Part shown: positions 6,476-20,791 of the stretch, one piece after another
How the letters are laid out: every line of letters starts with the position of its first letter
Position numbering within the stretch: the stretch's first letter is position 1
Assembly (NCBI RefSeq): GCF_000230555.1
Contig: NC_016078.1
Coordinates: 3,867,001 to 3,931,000, forward strand
Reading direction: 5' to 3'
DNA: 64,000 bases
Source: Pelagibacterium halotolerans B2
GTDB taxonomy: Bacteria > Pseudomonadota > Alphaproteobacteria > Rhizobiales > Devosiaceae
Position numbers and translations under genes: made by a program
Notes under the pieces: model-generated
The model's database searches: none
What the model was told of the DNA's origin: nothing
Seen by the model: only the letters and a program-made list of their open reading frames with translations

Positions 6476-7045
6476 ATGAAACGAGCATATTTGTATGCGC
6501 TGGCTTTTGCCGGCGCAGCAACGGGCTGTGCGTCCGCATTTGCGCACAACGGCGCCACCGGTATCGTCGCCGACAGGATGATGGGCATGATGATGTTGGG
6601 CGAGCAGATGCAGGCCCTGACGCCAATCATCAACGGCTCATCCGATCCAAGCCCCGGGGCAATTGAGGAGGCCGCAGCGATGATTGCGGCTCACTCCGGT
6701 AACGCAATGACTGAGTTGTTCCCTGAAGGCACTACGGAATTCCCTTCGGAAGCGCGTCCGGAAATATGGGAGGACTGGGCTCTTTTCGCTCAGTATGCCC
6801 AGCAACTGGAGAGCCTGGCCCAAGAGTTAGGAAGGACCACTGACCAACCGACGCAGGAGACCGCTCGGGTGGCGCGAAATGACTGGACAAGCATGGATAC
6901 CTCGGTGCTGCTCGGACTGGCGCCGAAATCTGACCCCGAAAATTCACGCTCTGACCCGGAAACACAATCGATCAGAAGCGCTGCCGCGGTTGCAACCGAT
7001 ATCGCCGGCACCTGCTCGGCCTGCCACACGGTGTTTCGCAAGTGA
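6476..7045 (+). CDS. Cytochrome c'-family periplasmic c-type cytochrome
   Basis: A 189-residue protein with a signal peptide ending near AFAHN. The single heme-attachment motif CSACH lies almost at the C-terminus (followed by TVFRK), as in cytochrome c' and c-556 four-helix bundles. Near the mature N-terminus is a methionine-rich patch (RMMGMMMLGEQM) that could supply an axial heme or copper ligand. The stop overlaps the GTG start of the next cytochrome (GTGA), so the two are co-translated and probably form an electron-transfer pair. A role in copper or nitrosative stress is inferred from context. Confidence 0.85.
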   Translation: MKRAYLYALAFAGAATGCASAFAHNGATGIVADRMMGMMMLGEQMQALTPIINGSSDPSPGAIEEAAAMIAAHSGNAMTELFPEGTTEFPSEARPEIWEDWALFAQYAQQLESLAQELGRTTDQPTQETARVARNDWTSMDTSVLLGLAPKSDPENSRSDPETQSIRSAAAVATDIAGTCSACHTVFRK

Positions 7046-7938
7046 CCTGGCCAAGAATCGATCGCAAATGGCCCGTTGTAACCGCGGTGCTCTTGGGCGG
7101 CTTGGGCCTGGGCTTGGTGATCTGGATGCTCATCCCCACCTCCACTCCCGAATTGCCGCAGCAGATCACCGGTGACGCCAAGCGTGGTGCCTACCTGGCC
7201 CGCCTCTCGGGCTGCGTAACCTGCCACACGAGCGAAAACGGTGAGCCTTGGGCCGGTGGAGTTGCTTTGGCGTCTGACTTCGGCACCTTCATATCCCCAA
7301 ACATTACCCCTAATCCTGAGATCGGCATCGGCGATTGGAGCTTCCAGGAATTCGTTCGGGCGGTAAGACACGGAGTCGCGCCCGATGGAACTCCATACTA
7401 CCCGGCATTTCCGTTCGAATTTTATGCCACGCTTACAGATCGGGACCTGGCCGACATGTGGGCCGCTGTCCAGGAAGTTCCTCCATCCAATTTTGTGCCT
7501 GAAGAGAACGAGGTCCCTCTACCATTCAGCATTCGTCAGGGCGTGAAGCTCTGGCGCACCTTTTTCTACGAGCCTGTTGACTTCGTGGTCGACGAGACCA
7601 AATCGACATCGTGGAATCGTGGACGGTTTATGGTGGAGGGACCGGCCCATTGCGCTGCCTGTCACACGCCGAGAAACATTGCTGGCGGCTTGGATACTGA
7701 CGCTCAGTTCGCTGGTGCCTCTGGGGGAGCTGCGGGTTGGACTGCACCCCCGATCACCACCGAGGCGCTTGCCGAGGCGGGCTGGACCAAGGAAAGCCTG
7801 ATTGCGGCGCTACGCACCGGGCTTACCCCGACTGGCGATGCTTTTGGAGGTGCGATGGCTGAAGTCGTCCACCTCTCCACAAGCTATTTGATGGATCAGC
7901 ATATCGAGGACATGGCTGAATTTTTGATGGATCAATGA
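7042..7938 (+). CDS. Membrane-anchored diheme c-type cytochrome
   Basis: A 298-residue protein. One N-terminal membrane anchor (about 10-31) is followed by two heme c domains with CVTCH (about residue 57) and CAACH (about residue 203). Motifs such as SPNITP and FVRAVRHGVAPDG are typical of the cytochrome subunits of alcohol/aldehyde dehydrogenases and related diheme cytochromes. The GTG start overlaps the previous stop. No dehydrogenase subunit is nearby, so it more likely relays electrons between cytochrome c' or the periplasm and the respiratory chain. This is inference. Confidence 0.85.
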   Translation: MTWPRIDRKWPVVTAVLLGGLGLGLVIWMLIPTSTPELPQQITGDAKRGAYLARLSGCVTCHTSENGEPWAGGVALASDFGTFISPNITPNPEIGIGDWSFQEFVRAVRHGVAPDGTPYYPAFPFEFYATLTDRDLADMWAAVQEVPPSNFVPEENEVPLPFSIRQGVKLWRTFFYEPVDFVVDETKSTSWNRGRFMVEGPAHCAACHTPRNIAGGLDTDAQFAGASGGAAGWTAPPITTEALAEAGWTKESLIAALRTGLTPTGDAFGGAMAEVVHLSTSYLMDQHIEDMAEFLMDQ

Positions 7939-7958
7939 AGTGATGTTAGCTTCGGTGG

Positions 7959-8402
7959 CTACAGGCCAGCCGGGTTCGCATCGACCGGCAGTCGTACGAT
8001 CTCATCGCCGATGCCGACCTGCACCTCCCACTGCCCGGCCATCGGAAGCATCGCACTGGCTTGATAGGCTCCGGGACCTGCCGATAAGACGTTGGCTGGC
8101 ACAGTCATCTGATGTCCAGTCATCACAATTTGAACCCGTGGATCGATGATATCGGCTCGATCCACGGGCAACCTGATGAATACGGTAAGGGTTCTATCGT
8201 CCGCCAAGCTGGCACTGACATTGACCGTGATGCCGGACGTATCGAGGGTGGCTACACTGGGCGTTCGCTGTGCGGGCTTGAAAACGAGTGGAATGCTCGC
8301 AAGGATCAGGACAAGGCCAAAAAACAAGGTCCCGACTGTCCACACCATCACCAACGAGACTCCGCTCGCCTTCTGGCGTCGGCTATTTCCTTTCGCTTTC
8401 AC
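7959..8402 (-). CDS. FixH/YtkA-like membrane-anchored protein
   Basis: A 147-residue protein with one N-terminal transmembrane segment (WTVGTLFFGLVLILASIPLVF) and a periplasmic beta-sandwich-like domain containing MTGHQM and ASAMLPMAGQWEV. This pattern is seen in FixH and YtkA-like proteins. FixH-type proteins are linked to maturation of copper oxidases through the CcoI/FixI copper pump. YtkA-like domains occur in copper loci. The GTG start overlaps the acyltransferase stop (GTGA). It is convergent with the diheme cytochrome gene, 20 bases away. The precise role is not determinable from sequence. Confidence 0.6.
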   Translation of the reverse strand: MKAKGNSRRQKASGVSLVMVWTVGTLFFGLVLILASIPLVFKPAQRTPSVATLDTSGITVNVSASLADDRTLTVFIRLPVDRADIIDPRVQIVMTGHQMTVPANVLSAGPGAYQASAMLPMAGQWEVQVGIGDEIVRLPVDANPAGL

Positions 8403-9493
8403 GATTCTTTCTCCGACACCGGCGCTTTGCGGCGAAGGGTTGGCCTCTCTACGAAATTCCAAGAAAGATACGCCAGGCTTCCGGCAATGATGCTCGACAG
8501 CAAGAAAAGCACTGCGACCTGCGGCCCAAGCCAGATGGGCTCCCGCGTCAGGACCTGTTGGACCGGCCATGCCATGAGGTAGATGCCGTAAGAGAGGTCG
8601 TGTCGCCGGGCGAATTTGGCGATGCGCCCCCAATTTTTGGCGCCTATATAGAGCGCTGCGTACCCAATCCCAATGATCCAGGTCACCTCCCCAAACCGGG
8701 TTCCCGTGCCAGCCACCGCCAAGGCAAGCGCCGCAATTGCCCAACCAAACCGTAGGGGTGTTATTTCCCCAAAACGCCGCGCCAGCACCCCGGTGAGAAA
8801 GGCAAATGCGAAACGGAAAAGGCTCTCGAGGGGCGTTTCACCAGTGGGATCGACCCCGACATCGGTGAACAGGGCAAGTCCGAACACCGCCCAAGCAATG
8901 GTGACGGCGGCCCGGTATCGTAAAAAGCCGAAAGCTGCTGCAGTGCCAAAGACGATATAACTCAGGATTTCATATTTGATGGTCCAGAGTGGCACGTTAA
9001 CATTGCCTGGATATCGGCCGTGTTCGAACATGGACGGCAGGGCGGCCCCCTCGAAATTCCACGCTACGTTGAGAGGATAGAACCAGGTCTGGGAGTAGGA
9101 ATAATACTCCCATAGAGAGGCATCCGTTGCGAAAGGACCGATAAGGAGGGCAACGAATGCGGCGCTGACGATCAGCGCGGGATAAATTCGCAGGAATCTA
9201 TTCCGGACAAACCGGCCGAGTCCCCGCTCCAACACGCTGTGCGTGAGCATCGCGCCCGATATGACAAAGAACACGTTTACTGCTGTTGCCCCCAGATCGT
9301 AGGCGGCCCAGCTCAAGGGATCGTAACTCGGTGAGTTTAGGCCCAAAAGCAGCGAATGGGAGAGCACCACACTCAACGCAGCGATCAAGCGCACGGCATT
9401 GTAACTGTTGTGGGGGGGGCCGAAGGCGGTCGAAAGCATAATGGGCGTGCCCGCGCCAGAAGCTGACGCCGGCCCATCGACGGGTCGGTTCAT
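8399..9493 (-). CDS. Acyltransferase family 3 membrane protein
   Basis: A 364-residue integral membrane protein of the Acyl_transf_3 family (OafA/NodX-like O-acyltransferases), with about ten hydrophobic segments. The family N-terminal pattern is present: NSYNAVRLIAALSVVLSH with the catalytic-type His, then FFVISGAML and RNRFLRIYPAL. It probably acetylates a surface polysaccharide or periplasmic glycan, substrate unknown. The first ATG is used; ATG at residue 19 (MLSTAFGPPHNS) is also plausible. It is coupled to the downstream FixH-like gene. An acyltransferase in copper cargo is unexpected. Confidence 0.82.
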   Translation of the reverse strand: MNRPVDGPASASGAGTPIMLSTAFGPPHNSYNAVRLIAALSVVLSHSLLLGLNSPSYDPLSWAAYDLGATAVNVFFVISGAMLTHSVLERGLGRFVRNRFLRIYPALIVSAAFVALLIGPFATDASLWEYYSYSQTWFYPLNVAWNFEGAALPSMFEHGRYPGNVNVPLWTIKYEILSYIVFGTAAAFGFLRYRAAVTIAWAVFGLALFTDVGVDPTGETPLESLFRFAFAFLTGVLARRFGEITPLRFGWAIAALALAVAGTGTRFGEVTWIIGIGYAALYIGAKNWGRIAKFARRHDLSYGIYLMAWPVQQVLTREPIWLGPQVAVLFLLSSIIAGSLAYLSWNFVERPTLRRKAPVSEKES

Positions 9494-9568
9494 TGGTCAT
9501 ACCGGAATCTGATGTTGGATTACATCTCGTCACCGCTGAACCGATGTTCGGCGGGTCAGAAAACAGAG

Positions 9569-9934
9569 TTATGCGCTCTGTTCCGGTCTCGGGGGCTGAT
9601 CAATTGGTGCAGGACGGTCTGATATCTGTGTCCTGACATAAGAATGTTTCCACGACCGCAGCCAGTCGGGTGGGCTCACCCAGCGGACGTTCACGATTAT
9701 GGGCGTTTCATGGACGTGGTCGGTGTTGTCGTGCTGGCCAGAGCCAAATGTGCTGGCCTTTTCGATCTGCGGATCTGGATTCCAGTCGATTGCGGTCAAA
9801 AGAGTTTCCGAACTGGGACCATGCAGTGGGGCATGGGCCGCCTGCAGAGGCAGCGCGACAACGATTACCCATGCCACAACAAGGAGGCGCAGGAACGATT
9901 GCCAGGAAATGTCTTTCGCCTCTGGACCGATCAC
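9569..9934 (-). CDS. Small secreted protein (copper-island family)
   Basis: A 121-residue protein beginning at GTG. One hydrophobic segment (SFLRLLVVAWVIVVALPLQAAHA) fits a signal peptide. The mature part holds HDNTDHVHE, a plausible metal site, and a C-terminal proline-rich end (DQPPRPEQ). No good ribosome site is seen, so the start is uncertain. It is divergent from another member of the same loose family at 10050 across a 115-bp spacer. No enzymatic motif is seen; role unknown, copper binding or sensing inferred from context. Confidence 0.5.
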   Translation of the reverse strand: MIGPEAKDISWQSFLRLLVVAWVIVVALPLQAAHAPLHGPSSETLLTAIDWNPDPQIEKASTFGSGQHDNTDHVHETPIIVNVRWVSPPDWLRSWKHSYVRTQISDRPAPIDQPPRPEQSA

Positions 9935-10049
9935 TGCCGCAATTTACACCAATATCCTGAATACCTTTGCCAGCATAGTGAACCGAATCGATCAGGTCCA
10001 CCCGCCCACCTGCTGAAACGCCGACCATGGAAGATTTCTCATCAGTCTG

Positions 10050-10355
10050 ATGCCGCAATTTGCGAAATTGATCCTTCTTCCATTCTTGGTCGTGCTCAGC
10101 CTTCTGGCTGCGCCGAGCGCCATGAGTTCGCCTCCGCAAGATGGGCATCATACGGCTGCGCACCACAACGACGTGGAGCACGATTTAAATGGCCACGAGG
10201 AGTGTGCAGCGATTGCCTGCTGCCTGATGCCTGCCAACACAGCTCGCCTGACACTCTTGGAACGAACGGCTGTTCTGGTTGATGCCTATCCTTTCCTGCA
10301 CAGAAGCGGCGAATATCCGCAAGTTCCTGCCCCTCCTCCAAAGCCACTGGTTTGA
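10050..10355 (+). CDS. Small His/Cys-rich secreted protein (copper-island family)
   Basis: A 101-residue protein with a clear signal peptide (KLILLPFLVVLSLLAAPSAMS). The mature region has GHHTAAHHNDVEHDLNGHEEC and AIACC, potentially many metal ligands, and ends in a proline-rich tail (APPPKPLV). It lies 37 bases upstream of the DUF305 copper-binding protein gene on the same strand, so the two are probably one transcription unit. It resembles DUF2946-like proteins by layout. Function unknown. Confidence 0.62.
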   Translation: MPQFAKLILLPFLVVLSLLAAPSAMSSPPQDGHHTAAHHNDVEHDLNGHEECAAIACCLMPANTARLTLLERTAVLVDAYPFLHRSGEYPQVPAPPPKPLV

Positions 10356-10392
10356 GCCGCGATATCGATCAATTTCAAACCGGAGAATACCA

Positions 10393-10875
10393 ATGAAGAC
10401 GTTCAAAACCCTCGGCCTCGCCATCCTCTTTGCCAGCACTGCGTCCATTGCGATGGCGCAGGGCATGGATCATTCCAACATGGATGGCATGTCCATGGAC
10501 GGGATGAGCATGGATGCCGATGCCAATGAAAGCTCGGATTTACCCGAAATCTGTCTCGAGAACTCCGACCACATGGCCGGCATGTCGATGGACATGGATA
10601 TGGGTGCAATGATGGAAGGCATGAGCGAGGGCCACCAGGCCATGATGGCCGATATGGGCGCTATGCATAACGATATGATGGCGGCCATGATGGCCGAAGA
10701 TTTCGATGTCGCCTTCATTTGCGGCATGATCCCACACCATCAAGGTGCTCTCGCGATGGCCAACGCGGCGCTCGAATATGCCGAGGACGAATGGGTAAAG
10801 GAAATCGCCCAGGAGATCGTCGACGCCCAAGAGCGTGAAATTTCCGAAATGCTTGAATGGCTTGAGGCCCGATAA
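10393..10875 (+). CDS. DUF305-family Met/His-rich periplasmic protein
   Basis: A 160-residue protein with a signal peptide ending near AMAQG, followed by a striking methionine-rich segment (repeated MDGMSMDG and MDMDMGAMM) and the DUF305 ferritin-like helical domain with its conserved MIPHHQGAL and AQEREI motifs. DUF305 proteins such as CopM bind copper in the periplasm and contribute to copper tolerance. The ATG at 10393 follows GGAGAA. A textbook terminator follows the stop. Confidence 0.88.
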   Translation: MKTFKTLGLAILFASTASIAMAQGMDHSNMDGMSMDGMSMDADANESSDLPEICLENSDHMAGMSMDMDMGAMMEGMSEGHQAMMADMGAMHNDMMAAMMAEDFDVAFICGMIPHHQGALAMANAALEYAEDEWVKEIAQEIVDAQEREISEMLEWLEAR

Positions 10876-11005: not shown

Positions 11006-12928
11006 TTACATTAGCGTCGAGATCGGCGTTTCCAGTTGATCGCTTCGGGCCCCGCAGCAGCGCTCCCCCAGACTCTTCTGAAGTTCACTCCCCGAAATTA
11101 CACTTTCTTTGACCAATTTATCGGCGAGCCGGAGTACGGCGTCACGCTCCCTACCCACAATATCGATGGCACGATCGAGCAAACGTTTGAGTTCCATTTC
11201 AATGGTGGTCACGAGAGATTCAGAGCGAAGGTCGCGATAAGCTATGCGTCGTGACACCAAAGTCTCGCCGAGGCCTTGGTTTTCAATGGCTGCTAGTAAA
11301 AGGTCTGTGGCACAGGCCAGGTCTCTCTCGGCTCCCGCGTTGGGGCCGGCTCCCACGACCATATCAGCGGCTCTGCCACCCAACATGACAGTGGCGACAT
11401 CCTCGAGCACTTCGCGTGTCGGCACGAGGCTCGGCACGCTGGTCCGCGTGTAACCACCCACGGACCCATTAGGCACAATCGTGATGGTGTCGACCGTATG
11501 GCCAAGCCGATGGGCGACGAGAGCATGACCGATTTCGTGAATGGCAATTGCTCGCACGTCTTGAGGAGAGCGATTGTCAGGTGGCAGCATGTGAGCGACA
11601 AGGTCGGCCAATACCATCGGCCGACCTTCGATCCGTGCCGTGGCACGCGCCGCATTGACCCAGCCTTCAATCATCGCCGGCGTTGCCCCCCGACCAAGCT
11701 GCACGATCTTCTGGAGATCGACGTCCGCCAAATCACTGCCGAGCCAGTATCGAAAGACGGCAAGAATCTCTTCTTCGGTGGAGGGCGGCAGAATGCTGAT
11801 GCGTTGTTGCAGTCTACCGGGACGGATCAGCGCGGCATCGAGACGGTCGTAGTAATTGGTGGCACCGATCAGCAAAACATTGCGCCCCGATTTGCGAAGT
11901 CTATCGATTTCCATCAGAAACAGGGTGATGACTGGGGTCCACCAGTCGCGGCCCTTGGCGTCCATGGTTTCCCGATCAGGCAGCGCGTCGAGCTCGTCGA
12001 GGAAACCAATGGCCGGTTCGGAAGCAAGGATTTGGTCGACAAACGCTTTAACATTGCGGGCCACACCGCCAAGAGCACCGTCCCCGGTAGTAAACCAGCC
12101 GCCAATGCTGCTGGATACAAAAGTCCAACCGGCGGTCGCCGCAAGGCTGTTGGCAATCAACGTCTTGCCTGTCCCCGGCGGTCCCTCAAGCGTAATGAAA
12201 GGCACTTGACCGATATCAAGGTCACCGGCCTGGACAGCGGAGAGATTACTGAGCACCTGATCCGACCATTGTCGGACCGGGCGCGTCACAGGCAGCACGT
12301 CCAGCCGTGGCACGTCGGGCGCCATTATAGTTTTCTCGCGGTCGACCGCACGCTGCAGTTTGGCAACGCATTCACCGGCAACTAAACCGCGCCGAATCGA
12401 AGCTAGGATAATATCGAGTTTCAGCCGCGCCATCTCCGGTGTTACCCCTCTGGCTATTCCGCCGGTCACACGCCGAATGGTCTTGCGCAGCAGCGGCGCT
12501 GTCATTTGAGGAAGCTTTACCACGACGTCGGCAACCGCCAGAACGGCATCGTCGAGCAGTCCGTCCGGGTCATGGGTAATAAACATTAGGCTATGGTCGC
12601 TCTGCAGCATGCCGAGTTCATCCCTGCCCGCCCGACACCGAATGCCACCGGACTTTTTGAGTTCGGTCACCTGAACAACTACGGGCGCGCGGTCCATCGC
12701 CTTGACGACATCGGCCACAGGATGAACCCAGTCGGCACTAGGCACGCACAGAACAAAGACGCCGGGATGCTGTTTGAGTTGGGAGCGCATAGGTCGGCTC
12801 AGGGCCGTTTCGAGCGCCATTTTTGCCAGCGCCGTTTCGGCGTCCTCACGCTGCGGTTCTTTGGGGCTGGGCTTGAACCGCTGCGGAATCTCATCGGCGA
12901 ACTCATCGATATTGGGAAGGTCGATCAC
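11006..12928 (-). CDS. Soluble FtsH-like AAA+ ATPase / M41 zinc metalloprotease
   Basis: A 640-residue protein. Residues 1 to about 215 form an uncharacterised N-terminal region with no membrane segment, unlike housekeeping FtsH. The AAA+ module has Walker A GPPGTGKT (249-256), a pore-loop-like GGWFTTGDGALGG, Walker B FLDELD (309-314) and an arginine-finger region TNYYDRLDAALIRPGR. The C-terminal M41 protease has HEIGH (464-468), GGYT, GGRAAD and the third zinc ligand in AERDLACAT (Asp about 536). All catalytic elements look intact, so an active ATP-dependent protease is expected. The GTG at 12928 has GGAGG seven bases upstream and is preferred over an ATG at 12970. It is the second gene of an operon with a GIY-YIG-like protein. 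Substrate unknown. Confidence 0.88.
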   Translation of the reverse strand: MIDLPNIDEFADEIPQRFKPSPKEPQREDAETALAKMALETALSRPMRSQLKQHPGVFVLCVPSADWVHPVADVVKAMDRAPVVVQVTELKKSGGIRCRAGRDELGMLQSDHSLMFITHDPDGLLDDAVLAVADVVVKLPQMTAPLLRKTIRRVTGGIARGVTPEMARLKLDIILASIRRGLVAGECVAKLQRAVDREKTIMAPDVPRLDVLPVTRPVRQWSDQVLSNLSAVQAGDLDIGQVPFITLEGPPGTGKTLIANSLAATAGWTFVSSSIGGWFTTGDGALGGVARNVKAFVDQILASEPAIGFLDELDALPDRETMDAKGRDWWTPVITLFLMEIDRLRKSGRNVLLIGATNYYDRLDAALIRPGRLQQRISILPPSTEEEILAVFRYWLGSDLADVDLQKIVQLGRGATPAMIEGWVNAARATARIEGRPMVLADLVAHMLPPDNRSPQDVRAIAIHEIGHALVAHRLGHTVDTITIVPNGSVGGYTRTSVPSLVPTREVLEDVATVMLGGRAADMVVGAGPNAGAERDLACATDLLLAAIENQGLGETLVSRRIAYRDLRSESLVTTIEMELKRLLDRAIDIVGRERDAVLRLADKLVKESVISGSELQKSLGERCCGARSDQLETPISTLM

Positions 12929-13007
12929 AGGAATACCTCCGCGCCGCGAGCAGGACTCGCTCGCGCGCAAGAAAGAGAAAAGGAAAGTGAATACGATCGG
13001 TGCCGCG

Positions 13008-14258
13008 TCAGGAGACGATCAGCACCGGTGTGTCCGGGTCGTAGCCGCCGTCCGGATCGATTGGCTGCCACCCGGCAAGGCCCCTGCCTTTCGAGCCACA
13101 GCAGAACTGGGCCGCAGCGCTTCCCGATCCGAAGACAAGGTCACGCATTACAGTGTAACTCTTGCCATCGGGCGCCAGGGTCAGCAGCCCGGAATGCAGC
13201 CATGCCGACCGCAGATAGCCTACCGATGCACTGGCCGAAGCAGCTGAAACCATCCGTATATCGGATCCGCGCAGCAGCACCCAGAGGTCATCGGCCTGCT
13301 TTGCGGCGAGCGCCACCAGGCCCGCGCCAAAGTTCATCTCAAAGACTTCGCCATCCGGCGCCGCGTTGAAGGGCCGAACAGACCCCATGCGCTGGGGCTC
13401 CGCACGAGGGCCGGAAAGGACCGAACGCATGCTACCTTGAGTGAAGAGAATGCCGCGGTGACGCAGGGCAAGACAAGCCTGCGCCACCATGGCGTCAAGA
13501 ATGTTGTAGCGTTCGGGATCAATTTCGTATCCGTCCGGCACGCCATTGATTAGCCTCCGTTCACCGGATCCGGCAAGCCGGGACCACATGATCCGTTCGA
13601 GAGCCTTGGCGTCGTCGGCAGTAAGCGCGCAATTGGCATCGACAATCGCGACGACTGTATCCACAGATACGATCGGCTGGCGCCCATTGGCAACGCGAGC
13701 GCCAACGTCCGCTCCTGTGCCCACGTAGGCCCAAATATCATTCATCAGGACATAGATACCCGGCCGCCGCACGGCCTCAAGGCGCGCGAAGTCTCGGCGC
13801 TGGTCACCAGCACCGACAAAGACGGCGGCTGAGAAAGGGTTCATATTCACAGCCTCAATGCCAGGTTCGCCACCGATGGAACTGCTGATGTCTACCGATG
13901 ACATAGACGCCTCCGGTCCGTCATCGTGAGGCTCACCGTCGATCGGGTTTCGAGGTCCCGAGCGACGCACAAGTGTAAACGCGTCAATGACGCCTGCGAC
14001 CTCGGCCGTCAGAATGCCAGCATCCACCATCAACAACACCGCGCCAACAGGATCGGGATGATCAGGCAATTCGATGACGATGTCACCGAGCGTGGCGCTA
14101 CCGGTCGCATCGACAACGCTCAGGATCTGCACCTGCGTCGAAGGCGAAATCAGCGCATGCTGGACCAAGCCGTTGACGAGCGGCGAGCCTTCGGAGGGGA
14201 AAGTGACGGAAAGGGACTTGTGCGGCGCACTAGCACCGGTAGAAGAAAAGATAGCCAT
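13008..14258 (-). CDS. Winged-helix / GIY-YIG-like / DUF4357-like protein
   Basis: A 416-residue protein with three parts. Residues about 40-95 look like a winged helix-turn-helix (VQILSVVDATGSATLGDIV then GAVLLMVDAGILT). Residues 166-240 match a GIY-YIG nuclease fold: PGIYVL (166-171), AYVGTGADVGARV (177-189) and a helix with a possible catalytic Glu (ERIMWSRL, 221-228). The C-terminal 90 residues resemble DUF4357 (GSGSAAAQF then GWQ). In the motif Tyr, Ile-Tyr and Tyr-Val replace canonical GIY and YIG, as is common. The start at 14258 has AGAGG five bases upstream. The gene precedes the FtsH-like protease by 79 bases on the same strand. Domain calls are by eye. Confidence 0.65.
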   Translation of the reverse strand: MAIFSSTGASAPHKSLSVTFPSEGSPLVNGLVQHALISPSTQVQILSVVDATGSATLGDIVIELPDHPDPVGAVLLMVDAGILTAEVAGVIDAFTLVRRSGPRNPIDGEPHDDGPEASMSSVDISSSIGGEPGIEAVNMNPFSAAVFVGAGDQRRDFARLEAVRRPGIYVLMNDIWAYVGTGADVGARVANGRQPIVSVDTVVAIVDANCALTADDAKALERIMWSRLAGSGERRLINGVPDGYEIDPERYNILDAMVAQACLALRHRGILFTQGSMRSVLSGPRAEPQRMGSVRPFNAAPDGEVFEMNFGAGLVALAAKQADDLWVLLRGSDIRMVSAASASASVGYLRSAWLHSGLLTLAPDGKSYTVMRDLVFGSGSAAAQFCCGSKGRGLAGWQPIDPDGGYDPDTPVLIVS

Positions 14259-14739
14259 GTTAGCCTCTGCACATTCAGGGGTTTCATGGTCAGGTCGACG
14301 GCGGGTTTGCAGACCTTCCGTCGGCCGCCTGTTGCAGCAGGGGGTTCCGACCAGACGCGCCATTGGGCACGACGCTCTTAGAAGTCGGGATCCATTTCGA
14401 AAAGTCAAGGCGCCCCCAAGGCCGCCTTGAGGCTATCTCGCCATAAGGTTAACGCTGGATTTTTTCGCTGATTTTTCCTTTGGCTGGCAAGGACTTGCGG
14501 TGCTCTCGGTTTAAGTCAACAATCCCGCCATGGTCTCCGGCAAAGGATTCGACAAGCGGCATACTTGCCAACATGCGTAAGAATTCCGAGAACTCGCCAT
14601 GTAGTTTTCAGTAAAGCAGCACAACGACTCGCCTCAATGGGTTAAGTGGTGCTGCCCTGTCGACAGCACCGTTTGGCGATGGCGGCAGCCCAATCGGCAG
14701 ACCCTTTGCAGCAAGCTTGCATGACATCATGCTAGCAAT
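14259..14739. other. Intergenic region with two hairpins
   Basis: No convincing coding sequence. It holds an 8-bp perfect hairpin at 14405-14430 (TCAAGGCG and CGCCTTGA), upstream of the GIY-YIG/protease operon, and another at 14648-14670 (GGTGCTG and CAGCACC), about 70 bases beyond the stop of the ParA operon. The second may terminate that operon. Promoter elements for the protease operon presumably lie at 14270-14500, but none is clear. Confidence 0.5.
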
Positions 14740-14985
14740 TTAGCTCTGGTCTAAGTCGTCGTCTTTAAGGCGAGGGGATGTCGGGATATCGCGTCCGTAG
14801 TGCCGAAGAAGCAGAACAAGCGCCTCGTGCATCAGAGTTTCCGCTGGCTTTTCGGTATCGAGAGCAAGTTGCTTGAGGGCGCGACGCTGAGGCTTGGTAA
14901 AGCGAACCAGCACCTTTCCCAAAGTGGTCTCGTCCTCATTGTCCGGCAGATCGGATCCCGATAGACTAGGTGCAAACCGGTTCAT
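14740..14985 (-). CDS. Small ParA-partner protein (putative ribbon-helix-helix)
   Basis: An 81-residue, basic-centred protein. The segment GKVLVRFTKPQRRALKQLALDTEKPAETLMHEALVLLLRHYG (shown here in pieces: a beta strand, then two helices) fits a ribbon-helix-helix DNA-binding fold. The start ATG overlaps the parA stop (ATGA at 14982-14985), and small RHH proteins commonly serve as the centromere-binding partner of plasmid ParA. A longer ORF start at 15030 lies inside parA and is rejected. Confidence 0.7.
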   Translation of the reverse strand: MNRFAPSLSGSDLPDNEDETTLGKVLVRFTKPQRRALKQLALDTEKPAETLMHEALVLLLRHYGRDIPTSPRLKDDDLDQS

Positions 14986-15827
14986 TGCGGCGCTCCATTC
15001 GTAACAAGCCGATCCCACAAACGATGCCACAGAACGAGATACTCTGCCGACGCCGCACCAACCGGCTCGTATTCGATGACGCCTTTCCCTTGGGCCGTCG
15101 CCAGCACGATCGATTGTCGCGTGCTGATCTGACCGCGCCAGACATGGGGTGTCCGGGTCTGAAGGATCTCACGGGCATCTCGCACTGTAGGCGCATCGAT
15201 CATGCTCCGCCGAGGCTGGGCTGCGGTGATGGCGGTCAGGAAGGGTGCTCTGCCGGCATCGAGCTGTCGGATCCAGGCCTGCGCCGTGGAAAGGTCGAAG
15301 ACGCTGGGCCGCGCCAGCAAGACAAACAGGTCGGTGGCGCGCACGAGCGCTGGCCAAGCCTCCCCCGGTTGCTGGGGGTGATCGATGAGGATGAGATCGA
15401 ATCCAGCTTTGCGGCCCGTTTGGCATTCCAGTTCGAGATGATTGTAGGCGCACTGTTTGACGGTGATGCCAGGATCCGATCCACGGATCCGCTTCCATCC
15501 CGAGACTGACCGTTGCCGGTCACAATCGAGGATGAGCACATGCATCCCCTTCTTTGCGGCAATGACCGCCAACTGACTGGTTGTGGTGCTTTTTCCGGCC
15601 CCGCCCTTGCCCACGCAGCACAAAGTCTTGCATGCGCCAAACCGGCGGTCGCGTCGGAACAGGGTCCGCAATCCGGCGCGAAGCCATACGCGGTCCACGC
15701 CGGGATCAACTGCTCCTTCAGCCAGCAACAAGGTTTGAGCGGCCTTGGCGCCCAGCACTTTCGCGTGCGCCGCAACGGGCAACACAGTGCGCGAGTGTGA
15801 GTGGAAAAGATCCAGACTGAGCTTCAT
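14982..15827 (-). CDS. parA: ParA-family partition ATPase
   Basis: A 281-residue ATPase expected to segregate or stabilise the element's DNA. An N-terminal extension of about 65 residues precedes the deviant Walker A motif KGGAGKST (74-81), with LILDCD (98-103) and a DLILIDHPQQ Walker B-like strand. The signature matches plasmid ParA/MinD ATPases. The start MKLSLD at 15827 has GGAGA seven bases upstream; a tandem ATG two codons earlier is nearly as good. It is first in an operon with a small RHH-like partner. A palindrome lies 57 bases upstream and may be its autoregulatory operator. Confidence 0.88.
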   Translation of the reverse strand: MKLSLDLFHSHSRTVLPVAAHAKVLGAKAAQTLLLAEGAVDPGVDRVWLRAGLRTLFRRDRRFGACKTLCCVGKGGAGKSTTTSQLAVIAAKKGMHVLILDCDRQRSVSGWKRIRGSDPGITVKQCAYNHLELECQTGRKAGFDLILIDHPQQPGEAWPALVRATDLFVLLARPSVFDLSTAQAWIRQLDAGRAPFLTAITAAQPRRSMIDAPTVRDAREILQTRTPHVWRGQISTRQSIVLATAQGKGVIEYEPVGAASAEYLVLWHRLWDRLVTNGAPQ

Positions 15828-15883
15828 CGGCATTCTCCGTGCCTTTGACCATGAGTCTAAAGGGTAGCGGAGAGGCGATCGGA

Positions 15884-15901
15884 ACAAAAACGTATTTTTG
15901 T
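15884..15901. promoter_or_regulatory. Palindrome upstream of parA
   Basis: ACAAAAA and TTTTTGT form perfect 7-bp arms around CGTA, 57 bases upstream of the parA start. An autoregulatory operator or partition site is plausible. The remainder of the 15828-16194 spacer holds AT-rich sequence and the KfrA-type palindrome, and no gene. Confidence 0.45.
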
Positions 15902-16141
15902 AGAAGAAATCAAAAGGTTGATCTCACCAATCAGAAAGCTCGGTGCAGCCTGTCATAAGGTAGGGCGAACTGGCAATCAGGTATTTTGCTAGCATTATAG
16001 CTTTATCTACCCTCATCAGCACGGTTGATGTTGGAGTTTTCAGATCGTTCGTCCCTCTTTCCTTGCTTCCTGCCGCAAGACGTTCGTTACCTTGCGTTAA
16101 GCACGCAGCTAGGCCGAGCTTGCGCAAAATAGCAGAACAGG

Positions 16142-16173
16142 TATGGTACGGTTTAGTAATATACCGTACCATA
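16142..16173. promoter_or_regulatory. Perfect inverted repeat upstream of the KfrA-like gene
   Basis: Eleven-base perfect arms TATGGTACGGT (16142-16152) and ACCGTACCATA (16163-16173), separated by ten AT-rich bases, end 21 bases before the KfrA-like start. KfrA proteins are autoregulators that bind palindromes overlapping their own promoter, so this is a strong candidate operator. Confidence 0.7.
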
Positions 16174-16194
16174 AGTTCAGAGTTGGAGGATGAA

Positions 16195-16830
16195 TTGAGC
16201 GCAGAAATTGCCACACTTGAAAAAGTGAAGGACGCCGTCGAACGTTTGCACCGCGAGGGCAGAAAGGCAACGGCCAACGCCGTGATCTCAGCCATCGGCG
16301 GAGGATCAAAACCCACCGTGCTCAAACATCTCCAGACCCTGCGGAAACCGGCTGAAGCGGCAGACGACCAGATGCCGTCATCGGTCCTCGATCTCGCCAA
16401 GCCGGTCATTGCGGAAATTTTTGCGCAAGGGATCAAGGCCGAAGAATTGCGCCAACGCGAGAGCCAAGAGCGGTTCCATCGCGTGATGGGGGACCTCGAA
16501 GCCCAGATTGAAGAGATCGCGGAAGCAGGCGAAGTCCTGGAAACAGCAAATGGCAGACTGACGCAAAAGTTGGAGGAAAGGACCTCAAATCTCGCCACCG
16601 CGCGTCGCACCATTGCCGAGCAGCAAACCCATATCGAGCGTCTGCAATCCGATCTCACCCGGCTCCAGTCCGACCTTGCCCAGCGCAATGCCGCTGCCAC
16701 CGAGCAGATCACCGGACTTCTGGATGATCTTGGCACAAAGATCGCCGGGATTGCCGGGCGGCTGGAAAGCGCTCCCCCGGTTCAAGCCGACGACAAGGTG
16801 AAGAAAGAGAATAAGGAGCAGGAGGGCTAA
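16195..16830 (+). CDS. KfrA-like DNA-binding coiled-coil protein
   Basis: A 211-residue protein. Residues about 1-50 match the plasmid replication-region DNA-binding N-terminal domain (KfrA_N): VKDAVERLHREGRKATANAVIS then GGGSKPTVLKHLQTL. Residues about 95-190 are a long Glu/Gln/Arg-rich coiled coil, as in KfrA, which forms filaments and supports partition on IncP/IncU-type plasmids. The tail is highly charged. The TTG at 16195, five bases after GGAGG, gives a start right at the domain boundary; the upstream in-frame ATG at 16063 would include the operator. It points away from parA and is convergent (4-bp overlap) with the next gene. Confidence 0.8.
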   Translation: MSAEIATLEKVKDAVERLHREGRKATANAVISAIGGGSKPTVLKHLQTLRKPAEAADDQMPSSVLDLAKPVIAEIFAQGIKAEELRQRESQERFHRVMGDLEAQIEEIAEAGEVLETANGRLTQKLEERTSNLATARRTIAEQQTHIERLQSDLTRLQSDLAQRNAAATEQITGLLDDLGTKIAGIAGRLESAPPVQADDKVKKENKEQEG

Positions 16831-17138
16831 GTCTCTCCCGAGTCGCTCTGCGACGACAAAGCGGCGTCGATCCAATCTCGACAAAGATCGAGGGCAAACC
16901 GGTCCCGGTCGCCGCTGCGACATTCCAGTTCTTTCAACAGGGCGGTAATGGTGACGGTCCCCTGCCGCGACAAGAGCGCCAAGGTCGCCTCGGTCATTAG
17001 GCATCGCGCTCGGCTTTGGGTTGGAGGCGAGGTTTCTCGGACCCGTCGTTCCAATTGATGCTTTTCCGCGACAAGCAGCGCCTGCTGGGTTTGGATCGCG
17101 CTCAAAGCCCGCAGATTGTTAAGAAGCGCCGAGGTCAT
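16827..17138 (-). CDS. Hypothetical protein downstream of the relaxase
   Basis: A 103-residue protein, not recognised. It is largely helical, with an N-terminal leucine/glutamine-rich stretch (LLNNLRALSAIQTQQALLV) and a second helical half (TEATLALLSRQGTVTITALLKEL) that could be a winged helix-like region. Its ATG overlaps the relaxase stop (17135-17138), so it is translationally coupled and may be a mobilisation accessory protein. Its stop overlaps that of the KfrA-like gene in convergent orientation. Confidence 0.65.
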   Translation of the reverse strand: MTSALLNNLRALSAIQTQQALLVAEKHQLERRVRETSPPTQSRARCLMTEATLALLSRQGTVTITALLKELECRSGDRDRFALDLCRDWIDAALSSQSDSGET

Positions 17139-18685
17139 TGCGCGGCCTCTTTGCCGGGGTGCCCCACGCTAAACTGAGCGTCCTGGCTCCCGGGATAGAT
17201 ATCGTAGAAATTTCGGTGGGGGCGAAAAGGGCGCGACAACGCATTGCCCGGGACAACCATCGCTTCAAGATCCTTTTCAAGAACATGGCGACGCCACAGA
17301 TCGCTGTCTTCGCCCATGGCCATATCTATCAAATCCAGAACAATCTCGGTCGATAGACTCTCGTCCTGATAGCGTCCGGCAAAAGGCATAAGTTGTGCGA
17401 CGAGTCGCTCGAGGCGCGGATTGCTCCAATCGGCAACCCGCTTGAGGATATCCCGCCGCTCGTCTGGAGACGCCTCGTGGAGTATGGCGACCACCTCCCG
17501 CGCCGCGCTGACGACGCCACTCCGACCCATAAGATCAAGGCGCGAGCGCTTTGCATTAAGGCGTTCACGCAACCAAGAGCGCTCCGGCTCGGGCGGTACC
17601 GGTATGGGCATACCGTCGGCATCGACGAGGCTGAGGTCGCGCCACCCCTTGCATCGGGTAAGATAGTATAGCGCCCTTAAAGCCTCCCCCTCGAGCTCCC
17701 CATCGATCAGGATTGCGGTGCCGATATCGACCAGTATTGCGGTGCCGACTTTGAAAACGACGCCGACCCCCTCCACCGAGACACGGTCCTGCACGGCAAT
17801 CCCCGCGCCCATCAACGCCGTCAGTGAGATTTCGAGCGATAGCGGGTTGGCGTGCTGATTGGCCTGCCACGACGTCAGGTTCGACATGGATTCCAGCTCA
17901 ACATCAATCTCGTACTGCAGTTCACCAGCTCGCCGCTCAAGCGCGACAATTTCATCGACGATCTGCTCATGCGCGCGGCGCACCTGGCGCTGCCCATCAC
18001 GGCGGTCCCTCAAAAGCTGCGCACCAGGAGTTCGGGATCCACGCAAGGTCTGCCGTGACAATTGGATTTCGGGTGGCAATGTGTCGTCGCGCAAGACATT
18101 CGGGCGGGGATCAAATGTCACATCTACCCCGCAGTCGGTTGCAATGGCGTTGAACAGCTCTGCTACGTGCTGCCGCACGCCAGCGCGAAACCACGTATCG
18201 ACCTCGCGGCATTTCCCCTCGGAAAAGCCTGTATCGCTAAGAATTCGTGTCGCGATCAGACCGTGAATATGGTCGTTGGCCAACCCGTCGTCCGCCGACG
18301 AGGTTTCCCAGTCGACCTGAACAGGAAGCCCCAGTTCAACAAACGGACGATAGAGATTCTGCACAAATTTCGCGATCCGTTCGGTAGGCAAGTTTCGTGG
18401 CCATGTAATATCGAAGTACCGCGCTTCTCGCGCATCCTTGCGCTTCTCGGCTATACTGGCCGCCTCCCAAACGGTTTCGCGCGTCCAGACCGAGGAGTCG
18501 ACTTCCTCGGGCAGCATCAGCCAGTGCTGCACATGGTTTACCCGATGGCCGTTCCGGTGTTTATCGCCGCGAATACCATCATGAATATCCGTTCCCATTT
18601 GGTAGGTGGAGCGCCCCGTTGCGCTCCAACCCTCGCGGCGCGAAACACCGCCAAAACTCACCCCAAGCAATCCCAAACTGACCAT
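17135..18685 (-). CDS. Putative MobA/MobL-type (MobQ) relaxase
   Basis: A 516-residue protein expected to nick DNA at an origin of transfer. Motif I resembles MobA/MobL: SRREGWSATGRSTYQ with a candidate catalytic Tyr at 28. The metal-binding motif III is NDHIHG (His139, His141), preceded by the helix ARYFDITWPRNLP that resembles the family LP-containing segment. The C-terminal half is unassigned and contains a coiled-coil-like segment near 225-260. The ATG at 18685 has GAGG four bases upstream; the ORF extends to 18718 without a ribosome site. No type IV secretion genes are in the window, so transfer would need a helper or genes further left. Confidence 0.68.
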   Translation of the reverse strand: MVSLGLLGVSFGGVSRREGWSATGRSTYQMGTDIHDGIRGDKHRNGHRVNHVQHWLMLPEEVDSSVWTRETVWEAASIAEKRKDAREARYFDITWPRNLPTERIAKFVQNLYRPFVELGLPVQVDWETSSADDGLANDHIHGLIATRILSDTGFSEGKCREVDTWFRAGVRQHVAELFNAIATDCGVDVTFDPRPNVLRDDTLPPEIQLSRQTLRGSRTPGAQLLRDRRDGQRQVRRAHEQIVDEIVALERRAGELQYEIDVELESMSNLTSWQANQHANPLSLEISLTALMGAGIAVQDRVSVEGVGVVFKVGTAILVDIGTAILIDGELEGEALRALYYLTRCKGWRDLSLVDADGMPIPVPPEPERSWLRERLNAKRSRLDLMGRSGVVSAAREVVAILHEASPDERRDILKRVADWSNPRLERLVAQLMPFAGRYQDESLSTEIVLDLIDMAMGEDSDLWRRHVLEKDLEAMVVPGNALSRPFRPHRNFYDIYPGSQDAQFSVGHPGKEAAQ

Positions 18686-18779
18686 GACGCCTCGCAACGT
18701 GTTAGTGAATGAACACATTGCGAGGGTGCCCGACAGGTGTGAAAGTTACCAGATCACGACCGCGTGAACGCAGTCGAAT

Positions 18780-20579
18780 TTAGCGGCGGGACTTGAGCCA
18801 ATCAGCGAAGGACTTCACACGTCCGATTGGCACCTGGACCGCGTCGATGGCTTCCACTTCTTCAGAGGTCAGATCGTCGCTCATGTAGCCACGATGCACC
18901 TCTGAGGTTCGAGCTTCAGTATCGTCATCATGACCGACCCATTTGAGGATCGTATAGGGGTTCACGCCCGCGCTGTGACAGGCCTGGATGAAAAAGCCTC
19001 TAAAGGAATGAAAGCTGAGCTTGTGCTGACGGTGGGCGGGGACATCCCATTTGAGACGATGGGCATTGAAGAAATCCGCCTCGAAATGGATCTCGGGTTC
19101 TCCGACCGACCCTCCTTTGACATGCTGCGTCCAAGCTGGAAACGGACGATCATGGAGGGCCTTCTGATGGTTCCAGAAATCGAGAAAGCCAATCTCGACA
19201 AGTTGGCGGTGAAGCGGAATTCGCCGCAATGCGTTGCCGGTCTTGTATCCGACGATACCGTTTGTGTTTTCCTCCGCCTCAGCGATTTCGAGCACGAAAG
19301 TCTGACGCCCGAACCAGGTCTGCATTTGCTCAAACCGCAAAAGCCCGACCTCTGTCACGCGCATACCGGTATGCGCCGCGATCAAGGGTGCCCAATAGAT
19401 ATGGTCATCGGCAAAGATCTCGTGGCCGGGCGAATAGCGAAGGCGGCGTGAAGCACTGCCGGTATAAACCGGGCACGACATGACCGCGGCCACTTCTTCG
19501 GGTGAAAATGGGGCCTTTCCCTTGCTCTTTGTTGCCCGTTTCGATTGCGGAATGATCAGCGGCGGAGCTTGCCAGCTATATAGCCGTTTCTTCTGACCGT
19601 ATCGCGCGATACGCGTGATGGCGCCAAGGTAGTTCGAATTGAGCGTCGTACGGGAAAGCCTGCGATAGTTGGCACCCTCTGCCTGCACCGCTCGGGTAAA
19701 TTTAACAATATTGTCCGGTGTGGCGCGACCCTGCGCCTTGGGAATCTCCTGAACAAACTCATAGAGCCGGTCCCAGAACGTCAGGGGTATTCTAGGGGCC
19801 GCCAGTGTCCTTACTTCTGGACATAGATCCTCAAACAACTTCACAGCACGTTCGATATTGGACCTGTTGTCCGCCCCCGTGTTCTTGCCATCGTGTTTGA
19901 AATAATGCTCCATGAGGTAGCGCAGTGTGTAGATCGGATGCCCATCGTCAGAGGCTATCGCCTCATCAGAGGTCGTCGCCTTGATTGCTGCCGACCGGGG
20001 CTGCGAAGGTTCGGTAGGGACAGGTTTTCCAGGAACAGGTTTGCTCAATACGGTGCCGCCGAGCTCATCGAGCACAGCTTGGAACCCTGAAACATCGATC
20101 TCGGCAAGCTTACGGATCGTGGCGCTATCTTGCGTCTTTCTGTCGTCCGGCAGCCGGTCGTAATACGCTTCGCCTTCGACCGTGGCACGGTTGAGATGGA
20201 CCAGTTCGGCATAGATTCCATCGAGGTTTTCGCCCAACCTCAATTCTTCGCGGGCACGGCGGATGATTTTGGATCCAACGCTTCCCAGCGCCCGACGGCG
20301 GACCAGATCCGCTCCGGTCATCTCCTCGGGCCGCAGCATCTGCTCGTCGATCAGCCGTTGCGTGAGATGCTTGAGCGCCTCCTCGGGCGCCATCCGCAGC
20401 AAGTCTTCAAACACTGCCAAGGCCTCCAGACCCCATTTGAGCGCCTCGGCCCGATCCTTGGTTCGCAACGACAGGCGCAAGACGTCACCTCTCACCTGGC
20501 CTATCCAGGCCCGGGGGATTCGCTTGCGCACATAATAGACCGCTCCGACCTTTTCCACATAGGCGCATTTGGCTGCCAT
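18780..20579 (-). CDS. Tyrosine-recombinase integrase of the island
   Basis: A 599-residue site-specific recombinase. An N-terminal DUF6538-like/SAM-like arm-binding part is followed by a long core-binding region and a C-terminal catalytic domain with HTGMRVTEVG (first Arg), HSFRGFF (His-x-x-Arg), WVGHDD and a C-terminal Tyr in HRGYMSD. It is larger than phage integrases, as is common for tRNA-targeted island integrases. The ATG at 20579 follows GGAGA. It sits 123 bases from the 3' end of tRNA-Ser, the expected attachment site, and reads away from it. Confidence 0.92.
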   Translation of the reverse strand: MAAKCAYVEKVGAVYYVRKRIPRAWIGQVRGDVLRLSLRTKDRAEALKWGLEALAVFEDLLRMAPEEALKHLTQRLIDEQMLRPEEMTGADLVRRRALGSVGSKIIRRAREELRLGENLDGIYAELVHLNRATVEGEAYYDRLPDDRKTQDSATIRKLAEIDVSGFQAVLDELGGTVLSKPVPGKPVPTEPSQPRSAAIKATTSDEAIASDDGHPIYTLRYLMEHYFKHDGKNTGADNRSNIERAVKLFEDLCPEVRTLAAPRIPLTFWDRLYEFVQEIPKAQGRATPDNIVKFTRAVQAEGANYRRLSRTTLNSNYLGAITRIARYGQKKRLYSWQAPPLIIPQSKRATKSKGKAPFSPEEVAAVMSCPVYTGSASRRLRYSPGHEIFADDHIYWAPLIAAHTGMRVTEVGLLRFEQMQTWFGRQTFVLEIAEAEENTNGIVGYKTGNALRRIPLHRQLVEIGFLDFWNHQKALHDRPFPAWTQHVKGGSVGEPEIHFEADFFNAHRLKWDVPAHRQHKLSFHSFRGFFIQACHSAGVNPYTILKWVGHDDDTEARTSEVHRGYMSDDLTSEEVEAIDAVQVPIGRVKSFADWLKSRR

Positions 20580-20701
20580 GATTGTCTCCGACTCGCAAAA
20601 GCAAAACCGGAACGCCAAACGACACGTGCATCAGGCATGTGCACTAGTCGTCCGGATTCTCCGGGAGCTTAAGTCCTTGAAATCACTGGAATTTGGAACT
20701 G

Positions 20702-20725
20702 TGGCGGAGAGAGAGGGATTCGAAC
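20702..20725. other. Predicted attachment site (att) of the island
   Basis: The 3' end of tRNA-Ser next to an integrase gene is the usual attachment core. I looked for a second copy of this segment inside 1-20,700 and did not find one; the partner copy should lie left of the window. Confidence 0.5.
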
Positions 20726-20791
20726 CCTCGAGACGGTTCCCCGCCTACACACTTTCCAGGCGTGCGCCTTCGACCACTCGGCCATCTCTCC
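20702..20791 (-). tRNA. tRNA-Ser (anticodon GGA)
   Basis: Ninety bases read on the minus strand: acceptor arm GGAGAGA pairs with TCTCTCC, the anticodon loop is CTGGAAA, there is a long variable arm as in type II tRNAs, the T-loop is GGTTCGAATCC, and CCA is encoded. The 3' end faces the integrase, so the island probably recombined into this 3' end and kept the tRNA intact. Confidence 0.97.

Follow-up and report, generated by a model that had tools for sequence, protein, structure and literature searches.

An AAA+ protease that gates a nuclease is known from ClpXP turnover of HsdR, where the protease is host-encoded and lies outside the restriction operon, and an AAA ATPase coupled to a protease is known from IetAS, in which the AAA ATPase IetA is partnered by the subtilase IetS. 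The operon considered here lies in a 64,000-nucleotide (nt) stretch of the 3.95-Mb genome of Pelagibacterium halotolerans B2, of the family Devosiaceae (the window, G000:C1:3867001-3931000, in which plain coordinates are positions; G with a number denotes a genome, G000 being the source genome, and L with a number an analysed locus). On the reverse strand, a gene for a winged helix-turn-helix (wHTH)/GIY-YIG/DUF4357-like protein is followed by the gene for a soluble FtsH-like protease. No description of a GIY-YIG nuclease paired with a soluble FtsH-like protease was found in literature searches, in keeping with the original prediction, made from the sequence alone, that this is not a described system. 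The explanation that we favour, at somewhat less than even confidence, is that the operon would form a mobile module of the defence type, its DNA-binding nuclease being gated by an AAA+ protease with two AAA-like domains and held back by a structured leader.

Comparison with described systems

The operon would work like IetAS, an accessory conflict system with an AAA+ ATPase coupled to a protease. Here, however, the protease is of the M41 type and fused to the ATPase, the partner is a nuclease, and there is no subtilase in the operon or among the neighbouring island genes scanned; IetA is the best PADLOC match of the protease (5.5e-18), over the AAA domain only. The ClpXP/HsdR case is an analogy for a nuclease gated by an AAA+ protease, with the difference that here the protease gene sits in the nuclease operon. 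From FtsH the window protease differs in having no membrane anchor and an extra, degenerate AAA-like domain at its N-terminus, and in being accessory, carried on islands and plasmids and paired with a nuclease gene. The profile of the PADLOC candidate PDC-S14, the 'S' of which presumably stands for a single-protein candidate, is matched by the GIY-YIG protein, but here that protein carries a winged helix in addition and is in an operon with the protease. The type IV restriction systems GmrSD and McrBC likewise combine a nuclease with an NTPase, whereas here the ATPase bears a protease, and a domain scan of both operon proteins found no GmrS, GmrD, McrB or McrC domain. DUF4357 occurs in GmrSD homologues, is an McrB neighbourhood 'alias' and is placed in type IV restriction and GIY-YIG contexts (PMC4619093, PMC11090510).

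The protease and the winged-helix/GIY-YIG protein

The protease gene (11006..12928, reverse strand, as are all features of the operon) has a GTG start and encodes 640 amino acids (aa). Its protease domain (residues ~455-622, 11063..11566; HEIGH motif at 11525-11539) scores 63.7 bits against a gathering score of 29.9 for PF01434, which places it in peptidase family M41. The HExxH motif and third zinc ligand are intact, and the zinc-site residues H464, E465, H468 and D536 are invariant. This domain is preceded by an active AAA ATPase domain (residues 202-449, 11582..12325), and that in turn by a degenerate AAA-like domain without Walker A (residues ~30-199, 12332..12841), delimited from a predicted model and a Rix7 tandem-AAA alignment between residues 32 and 449. 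Similarity to FtsH, at ~22-33% identity to FtsH-type proteins, spans residues 205-621, that is AAA and M41; the score of 141.7 bits is far below the cut-off of 600 for the FtsH equivalog (TIGR01241). An N-terminal transmembrane anchor was not detected, the best hydrophobic stretch scoring 1.51, where that of the FtsH encoded in the same genome reaches 2.37. The earlier description of a complete AAA+ M41 protease without a transmembrane segment is thus borne out, with an active AAA domain, an intact zinc site and no anchor. Within Devosiaceae the protease is accessory, being found in 51 of 136 genomes at E≤1e-60. Among phages 41 records match it, none over 80% of its length, and the 12 listed resemble host FtsH.

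Upstream of it, the 416-aa partner (13008..14258) comprises a winged-helix domain (residues ~28-104, 13947..14177), a GIY-YIG nuclease domain (residues ~141-240, 13539..13838, with catalytic residues up to N238) and a DUF4357-like C-terminal domain (residues 351-398, 13065..13208). The residues Y169, Y178, R188, E221 and N238, which we take to fill the Tyr, Tyr, Arg, Glu and Asn motif roles of GIY-YIG nucleases, are invariant in 36 sequences. The predicted gene order and domains stood, save that DUF4357 (PF14267) falls below its Pfam cut-off in the window protein (25.0 bits, gathering 38.4); some relatives carry it as a precomputed domain. As to fold, the M41 assignment was upheld by its domain score and the GIY-YIG one found a weak structural match: a Foldseek search with the GIY protein gave no PDB match below E 1e-3, and 2lwf was the sole entry covering the GIY-YIG region among the 50 structure matches listed. 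The protein covers 77-82% of two PDC-S14 profiles (1.2e-16 and 7.6e-16, the better being matched over positions 38-299 of 320), a match judged by profile coverage, PADLOC's own threshold being no part of the output; a GIY protein of the split form described below matches PDC-S14 at 7.7e-25. Matches to the window protein occur in 41 of the 136 Devosiaceae genomes (E≤1e-3), in some of them in several copies, and one scan of viral contigs gave none.

Pairing and exchange of partners

Conserved co-occurrence of the two genes in other genomes had been proposed as a check, and it was passed. A protease gene lies within 600 nt downstream in 30 of the 32 GIY-protein matches longer than 300 residues in the 136 genomes, and of the two unpaired matches one is at a contig end and the other is a broken copy. 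Together with the location on a 66-kb tRNA-Ser island, this agrees with the proposed two-protein system on an accessory island. Degraded GIY copies persist, with internal stop codons in G061 and in two pieces in G080.

Gene calling on 112 loci yielded 114 protease genes (99 distinct sequences), and 83 loci were counted after 7 fragments, 6 membrane FtsH genes (L133-L138) and 3 contig-end cases had been left out. Upstream of the M41 gene were a fused wHTH-GIY gene in 27, separate GIY and wHTH genes in 10, GIY only in 7, wHTH only in 9, a PD-(D/E)xK-like gene in 5 and no recognised partner in 25. A scan of named genomes with the protease only (57 loci, 44 judgeable protease genes; a GIY partner being counted if at most three same-strand genes and 1.6 kb upstream) is the fairer figure, since 40 loci in the set of 83 had been chosen for having (20) or lacking (20) a GIY gene. 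It found GIY partners for 31 of 44 (17 fused, 9 split, 5 GIY only), with 4 PD-like, 3 wHTH only and 6 without a partner.

The fused form is that of Devosiaceae, while split wHTH and GIY genes precede the protease in Microvirga, Salinarimonas and a Methylobacterium plasmid; by the 'Rosetta' argument, fused and split forms before the same protease suggest a joint function of winged helix, nuclease and protease. Plasmid copies of the protease have GIY-YIG genes again in Bosea, Paracoccus and Rhodobacter, and in further plasmid copies a metallophosphoesterase gene immediately precedes or follows it. The PD-(D/E)xK motif was spotted by eye and has weak profile matches (Hjc 0.22; PDDEXK_5 0.057 in another partner), one PD-like partner having no Pfam or PADLOC match. 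As far as these gene calls go the nuclease partner is exchangeable, being GIY-YIG, PD-(D/E)xK-like or, in operons that have this leader but a different AAA+ ATPase, CoiA-type; exchange is as expected for effectors in conflict systems.

Genes resembling DUF6634 adjoin M41 in L067, L091, L103, L111, L112, L005 and others, and stand directly downstream in 7 of the 83 loci; no paper on DUF6634 was found in the literature search.

A structured leader

Partner exchange, the leader, the recombinase and Tn7-like associations and the ~66-kb extent of the island all go beyond the original prediction. The leader (14256..14338) ends at the GIY start codon and comprises a main hairpin and a small hairpin over the likely Shine-Dalgarno sequence. 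Its alignment and 21-pair structure were drawn by hand from the same 20 sequences later tested, in which 77.0% of pairs are standard (71.1 ± 0.9 when shuffled, 29-43% when slid) and the covariation score is 0.215, against 0.114 ± 0.013 in shuffles (0 of 500). On two measures the leader is unremarkable, namely double-change pairs (10; 8.0 ± 1.4) and further pair types (17; 17.8 ± 1.8). For four members, folding alone gave z-scores of -2.4, -2.8, -4.5 and -1.3. We favour an RNA rather than a DNA element on account of where it lies, at the start codon, and of its second hairpin, which covers the likely Shine-Dalgarno sequence; as palindromes covary too, the hairpin could instead be a DNA operator or cruciform. 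That it is an attachment site is disfavoured, the unit shared by two Devosia copies (L083/L084) beginning ~250 nt upstream of it. Rfam gave no match above the gathering threshold (best 23.9 against 55 bits, R1162 antisense), and the literature search found no paper on this leader.

A covariance model recovered the leader at 21 of the 54 protease loci on which it had not been trained, one locus being counted twice; the 21 include GIY genes from other families as well as the PD-like type (L032, L033/L098). None of 20 control regions gave a match. The 136 Devosiaceae genomes hold 91 full-length matches, spread over 55 genomes: 45 head GIY-type sequences, 5 head lone recombinases and 41 lie elsewhere. 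A leader lies within 700 nt of 31 of the 32 long GIY matches; because 16 of those loci trained the model, the fair figure is the 15 of 16 outside the training set.

Among the 41 sites elsewhere, 20 were read, and 13 of these leaders head a gene pair for an AAA ATPase and a CoiA-type nuclease, assigned by eye from translations (the ATPase gene is broken in the calls at L295 and L301). Pfam AAA matched in 4 of 4 such ATPases tested (1e-7 to 2e-12) and CoiA in 3 of 3 nucleases (9e-6 to 1e-10). The others comprise two sites where genes for a small protein and a serine recombinase follow (Resolvase 4.7e-26 in the one tested), one with a small protein alone, one before unrelated genes and three at contig ends.

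This pairing of AAA+ ATPase (~350-420 aa) with CoiA-type nuclease (~460-490 aa) in one operon, present at L302:562-3104, L299, L300, L305, L307 and others, looks like an undescribed module in its own right, and five proteins of such pairs had no PADLOC match except a weak one to IetA (8.8e-4). The small protein behind the leader, of 114-159 aa (L294:324-2990, L304, L298, L254:13003-13392; likeness judged by eye), is followed by a serine recombinase in L294 and L304 and by a tyrosine recombinase in L254.

Neighbouring genes and mobility

Taking the two closest further genes on either side of 41 Devosiaceae protease genes gave 151 neighbours, of which 137 within a size limit were compared by PADLOC, at 1e-12, with 137 control genes. 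The controls were drawn, in the same genomes, from 20 regions set at a constant fractional position on contigs. Names among the best 25 of 51 families near the protease include MkoA and MkoC (Mokosh), HamA and HamB (Hachiman), SngA and SngB (Shango), BrxA and BrxD (BREX), HmaC, MzaD, MzaE, SspH, SoFic, PDC-M23B, DUF499 and five TnsB. The best 25 of 45 control families include GajB and RTasHel (UvrD-like), DndA/SspA (cysteine-desulphurase-like), mad2, mad3 (8 members) and WYL, names which are in our judgement housekeeping look-alikes. Near plasmid copies of the protease are CBASS, TIR, SIR2 and methylase genes. So far as gene content is a guide, the neighbourhood supports a role in defence over one in partition or of a toxin-antitoxin kind.

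A tyrosine recombinase stands directly downstream of the protease in 12 of the 83 loci (Phage_integrase 1e-13 for that of L058), and in several gene calls the two genes overlap by 4 nt (L036, L058, L067, L070). A search for the recombinase subfamily in Devosiaceae gave 28 rows for 27 genes, of which 16, counted from two tables, directly follow a protease gene and 11 have no adjoining M41 gene at E≤1e-60. The two Devosia copies L083 and L084, 91.5% identical over 4.7 kb, share [GIY-M41-recombinase], from upstream of the GIY gene to the recombinase stop codon, and their flanks differ on both sides. When the L083 and L067 flanks were compared with the 136 genomes for an empty site of this unit, pieces of flank were found and no clean joined site, and so the ends given for it are provisional. 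At 14 of the 27 recombinase loci, and at 1 of 20 control regions, at least one surface-polysaccharide gene was recognised (more by eye), a count partly circular because the seeds came partly from the same loci. With or without M41, the subfamily borders surface-polysaccharide clusters (L083, L084, L088, L067, L100, L131, L242, L245, L257, to the right of the recombinase).

At nine loci (L041, L042, L044-L048, L050, L124) the protease is beside TnsA/TnsB/TniB-type genes. Profile matches exist for two (TnsA-like 0.0013, Mu-transpos_C 1.2e-6, TniB 1.7e-15), PADLOC named five TnsB, and the remaining Tn7-like genes were assigned by length and order. Between M41 and TnsA no direct-repeat array, as of transposon ends, was found in seven of eight stretches, the eighth having three short direct-repeat families. 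Several of these proteases have a 70-83-aa gene downstream, and at some loci the opposite flank carries BREX-like or other defence genes.

The window's own operon is on a tRNA-Ser island of ~66.2 kb (G000:C1:3821481-3887702), whose integrase-proximal portion takes up window positions 1-20702. The extent is deduced from a 20-bp direct repeat and the integrase adjoining the tRNA-Ser gene (20702..20791, reverse strand, the attachment site): its last 20 nt are found again, with a single mismatch and in the same orientation, at G000:C1:3821481-3821500 (E 0.08 taken alone, checked base by base). Between operon and tRNA lie genes for a ribbon-helix-helix (RHH) protein (14740..15030, reverse), a ParA-type partition ATPase (14982..15887, reverse), a KfrA-like protein (16063..16830, forward), a MobQ-type relaxase (17135..18718, reverse; NCBIfam match below and Pfam MobA_MobL above cut-off) and the likely tyrosine integrase of the island (18780..20618, reverse; DUF6538 above, Phage_integrase below cut-off). 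The left part of the island carries copper, transport and catabolic genes, named by eye. The copper-gene block beside the operon (6548-10875) is 90.8% identical to L040:8544-12879 in another genome of the genus, where it adjoins a different M41 gene with a winged-helix partner. Three other genomes of the genus have M41 loci identical to those of P. sediminicola (L054=L089), P. luteolum (L035=L100) and P. montanilacus (L033=L098).

Function of the operon and alternative explanations

From gene content, catalytic residues, pairing, leader and neighbourhood we infer DNA cutting, proteolysis of the nuclease or of an inhibitor, and a role in defence. The winged helix and DUF4357-like end would bring the nuclease to invading DNA, whether of phage, plasmid or rival element, and the AAA-M41 machine would gate it, by degrading or remodelling either the nuclease or an inhibitor, such that cutting is limited to sensed invasion. 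The leader, whose last small hairpin covers the likely Shine-Dalgarno sequence, may for that reason keep translation of the first gene low until needed. Several observations weigh against this explanation. The PADLOC comparison considers the best 25 families per set with names judged by eye, and defence islands carry passengers as well. The model misses the leader at 33 of the 54 protease loci outside training, including five Microvirga loci with GIY genes, and the presence of the leader before recombinases fits control of an element as well as defence. The 25 of 83 loci lacking a recognised nuclease or winged-helix partner include seven of the nine next to Tn7-like genes, the other two, L047 and L124, having a winged-helix gene only, and so the protease may have other roles.

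The main rival, which we consider unlikely, is that the pair belongs to the life cycle of a mobile element, with the protease turning over a recombinase or relaxase complex, much as ClpX acts on Mu transposase, and the nuclease processing or homing to a target; GIY-YIG proteins include homing endonucleases. It would account for the recombinases that directly follow M41, several by overlap, for the exactly shared unit of L083 and L084, for M41 genes just before Tn7-like ones and for the same leader before lone recombinases. The window's own pair, however, has no such recombinase adjoining it, 71 of the 83 counted loci have none directly downstream, 11 of the 27 recombinases have no M41 neighbour, and defence genes are common among the neighbours. 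Less probable again is addiction, a toxin-antitoxin-like stabilisation of the island in which a nuclease toxin is checked by proteolysis, by chaperoning from the protease or by the leader RNA. A two-gene operon adjoining ParA, RHH and KfrA genes on a mobilisable island would suit it, as would the accessory, sometimes multicopy pair and a structured leader beside a nuclease gene, but usual antitoxins are far smaller than this protease, the degraded GIY copies persist, not all loci have a recognised ParA-type gene (16 in the 1,506 gene calls from the 112 loci), and the leader is, judging by the sequence, part of the mRNA 5′ region and not a separate transcript. The match of AAA and M41 domains to FtsH might also point to an ordinary quality-control protease that islands carry with an unrelated nuclease gene, and this is disfavoured as very improbable: the adjacency is conserved and the partner architecture fused or split, there is no membrane anchor, the gene is accessory, and the score lies far under the FtsH equivalog cut-off.

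Implications

A wider proposal than that of the gated defence module is held a shade more tentatively. One leader RNA, absent from Rfam, may mark a hidden regulon of AAA+/nuclease conflict operons (GIY-YIG with AAA-M41, PD-like with AAA-M41, AAA with CoiA-type) and recombinases across Hyphomicrobiales, the RNA being a shared switch for mobile defence modules, or a guide or restraint of nucleases, and AAA-M41 a new proteolytic arm of bacterial immunity. Defence systems combining a nuclease with an ATPase are many, and none found in the literature joins a nuclease to a soluble FtsH-like protease. If the proposal is true, the leader RNA model would be one handle for finding a set of undescribed modules, their silencing until invasion would become testable, and FtsH-type proteases would have been recruited away from the membrane for conflict.

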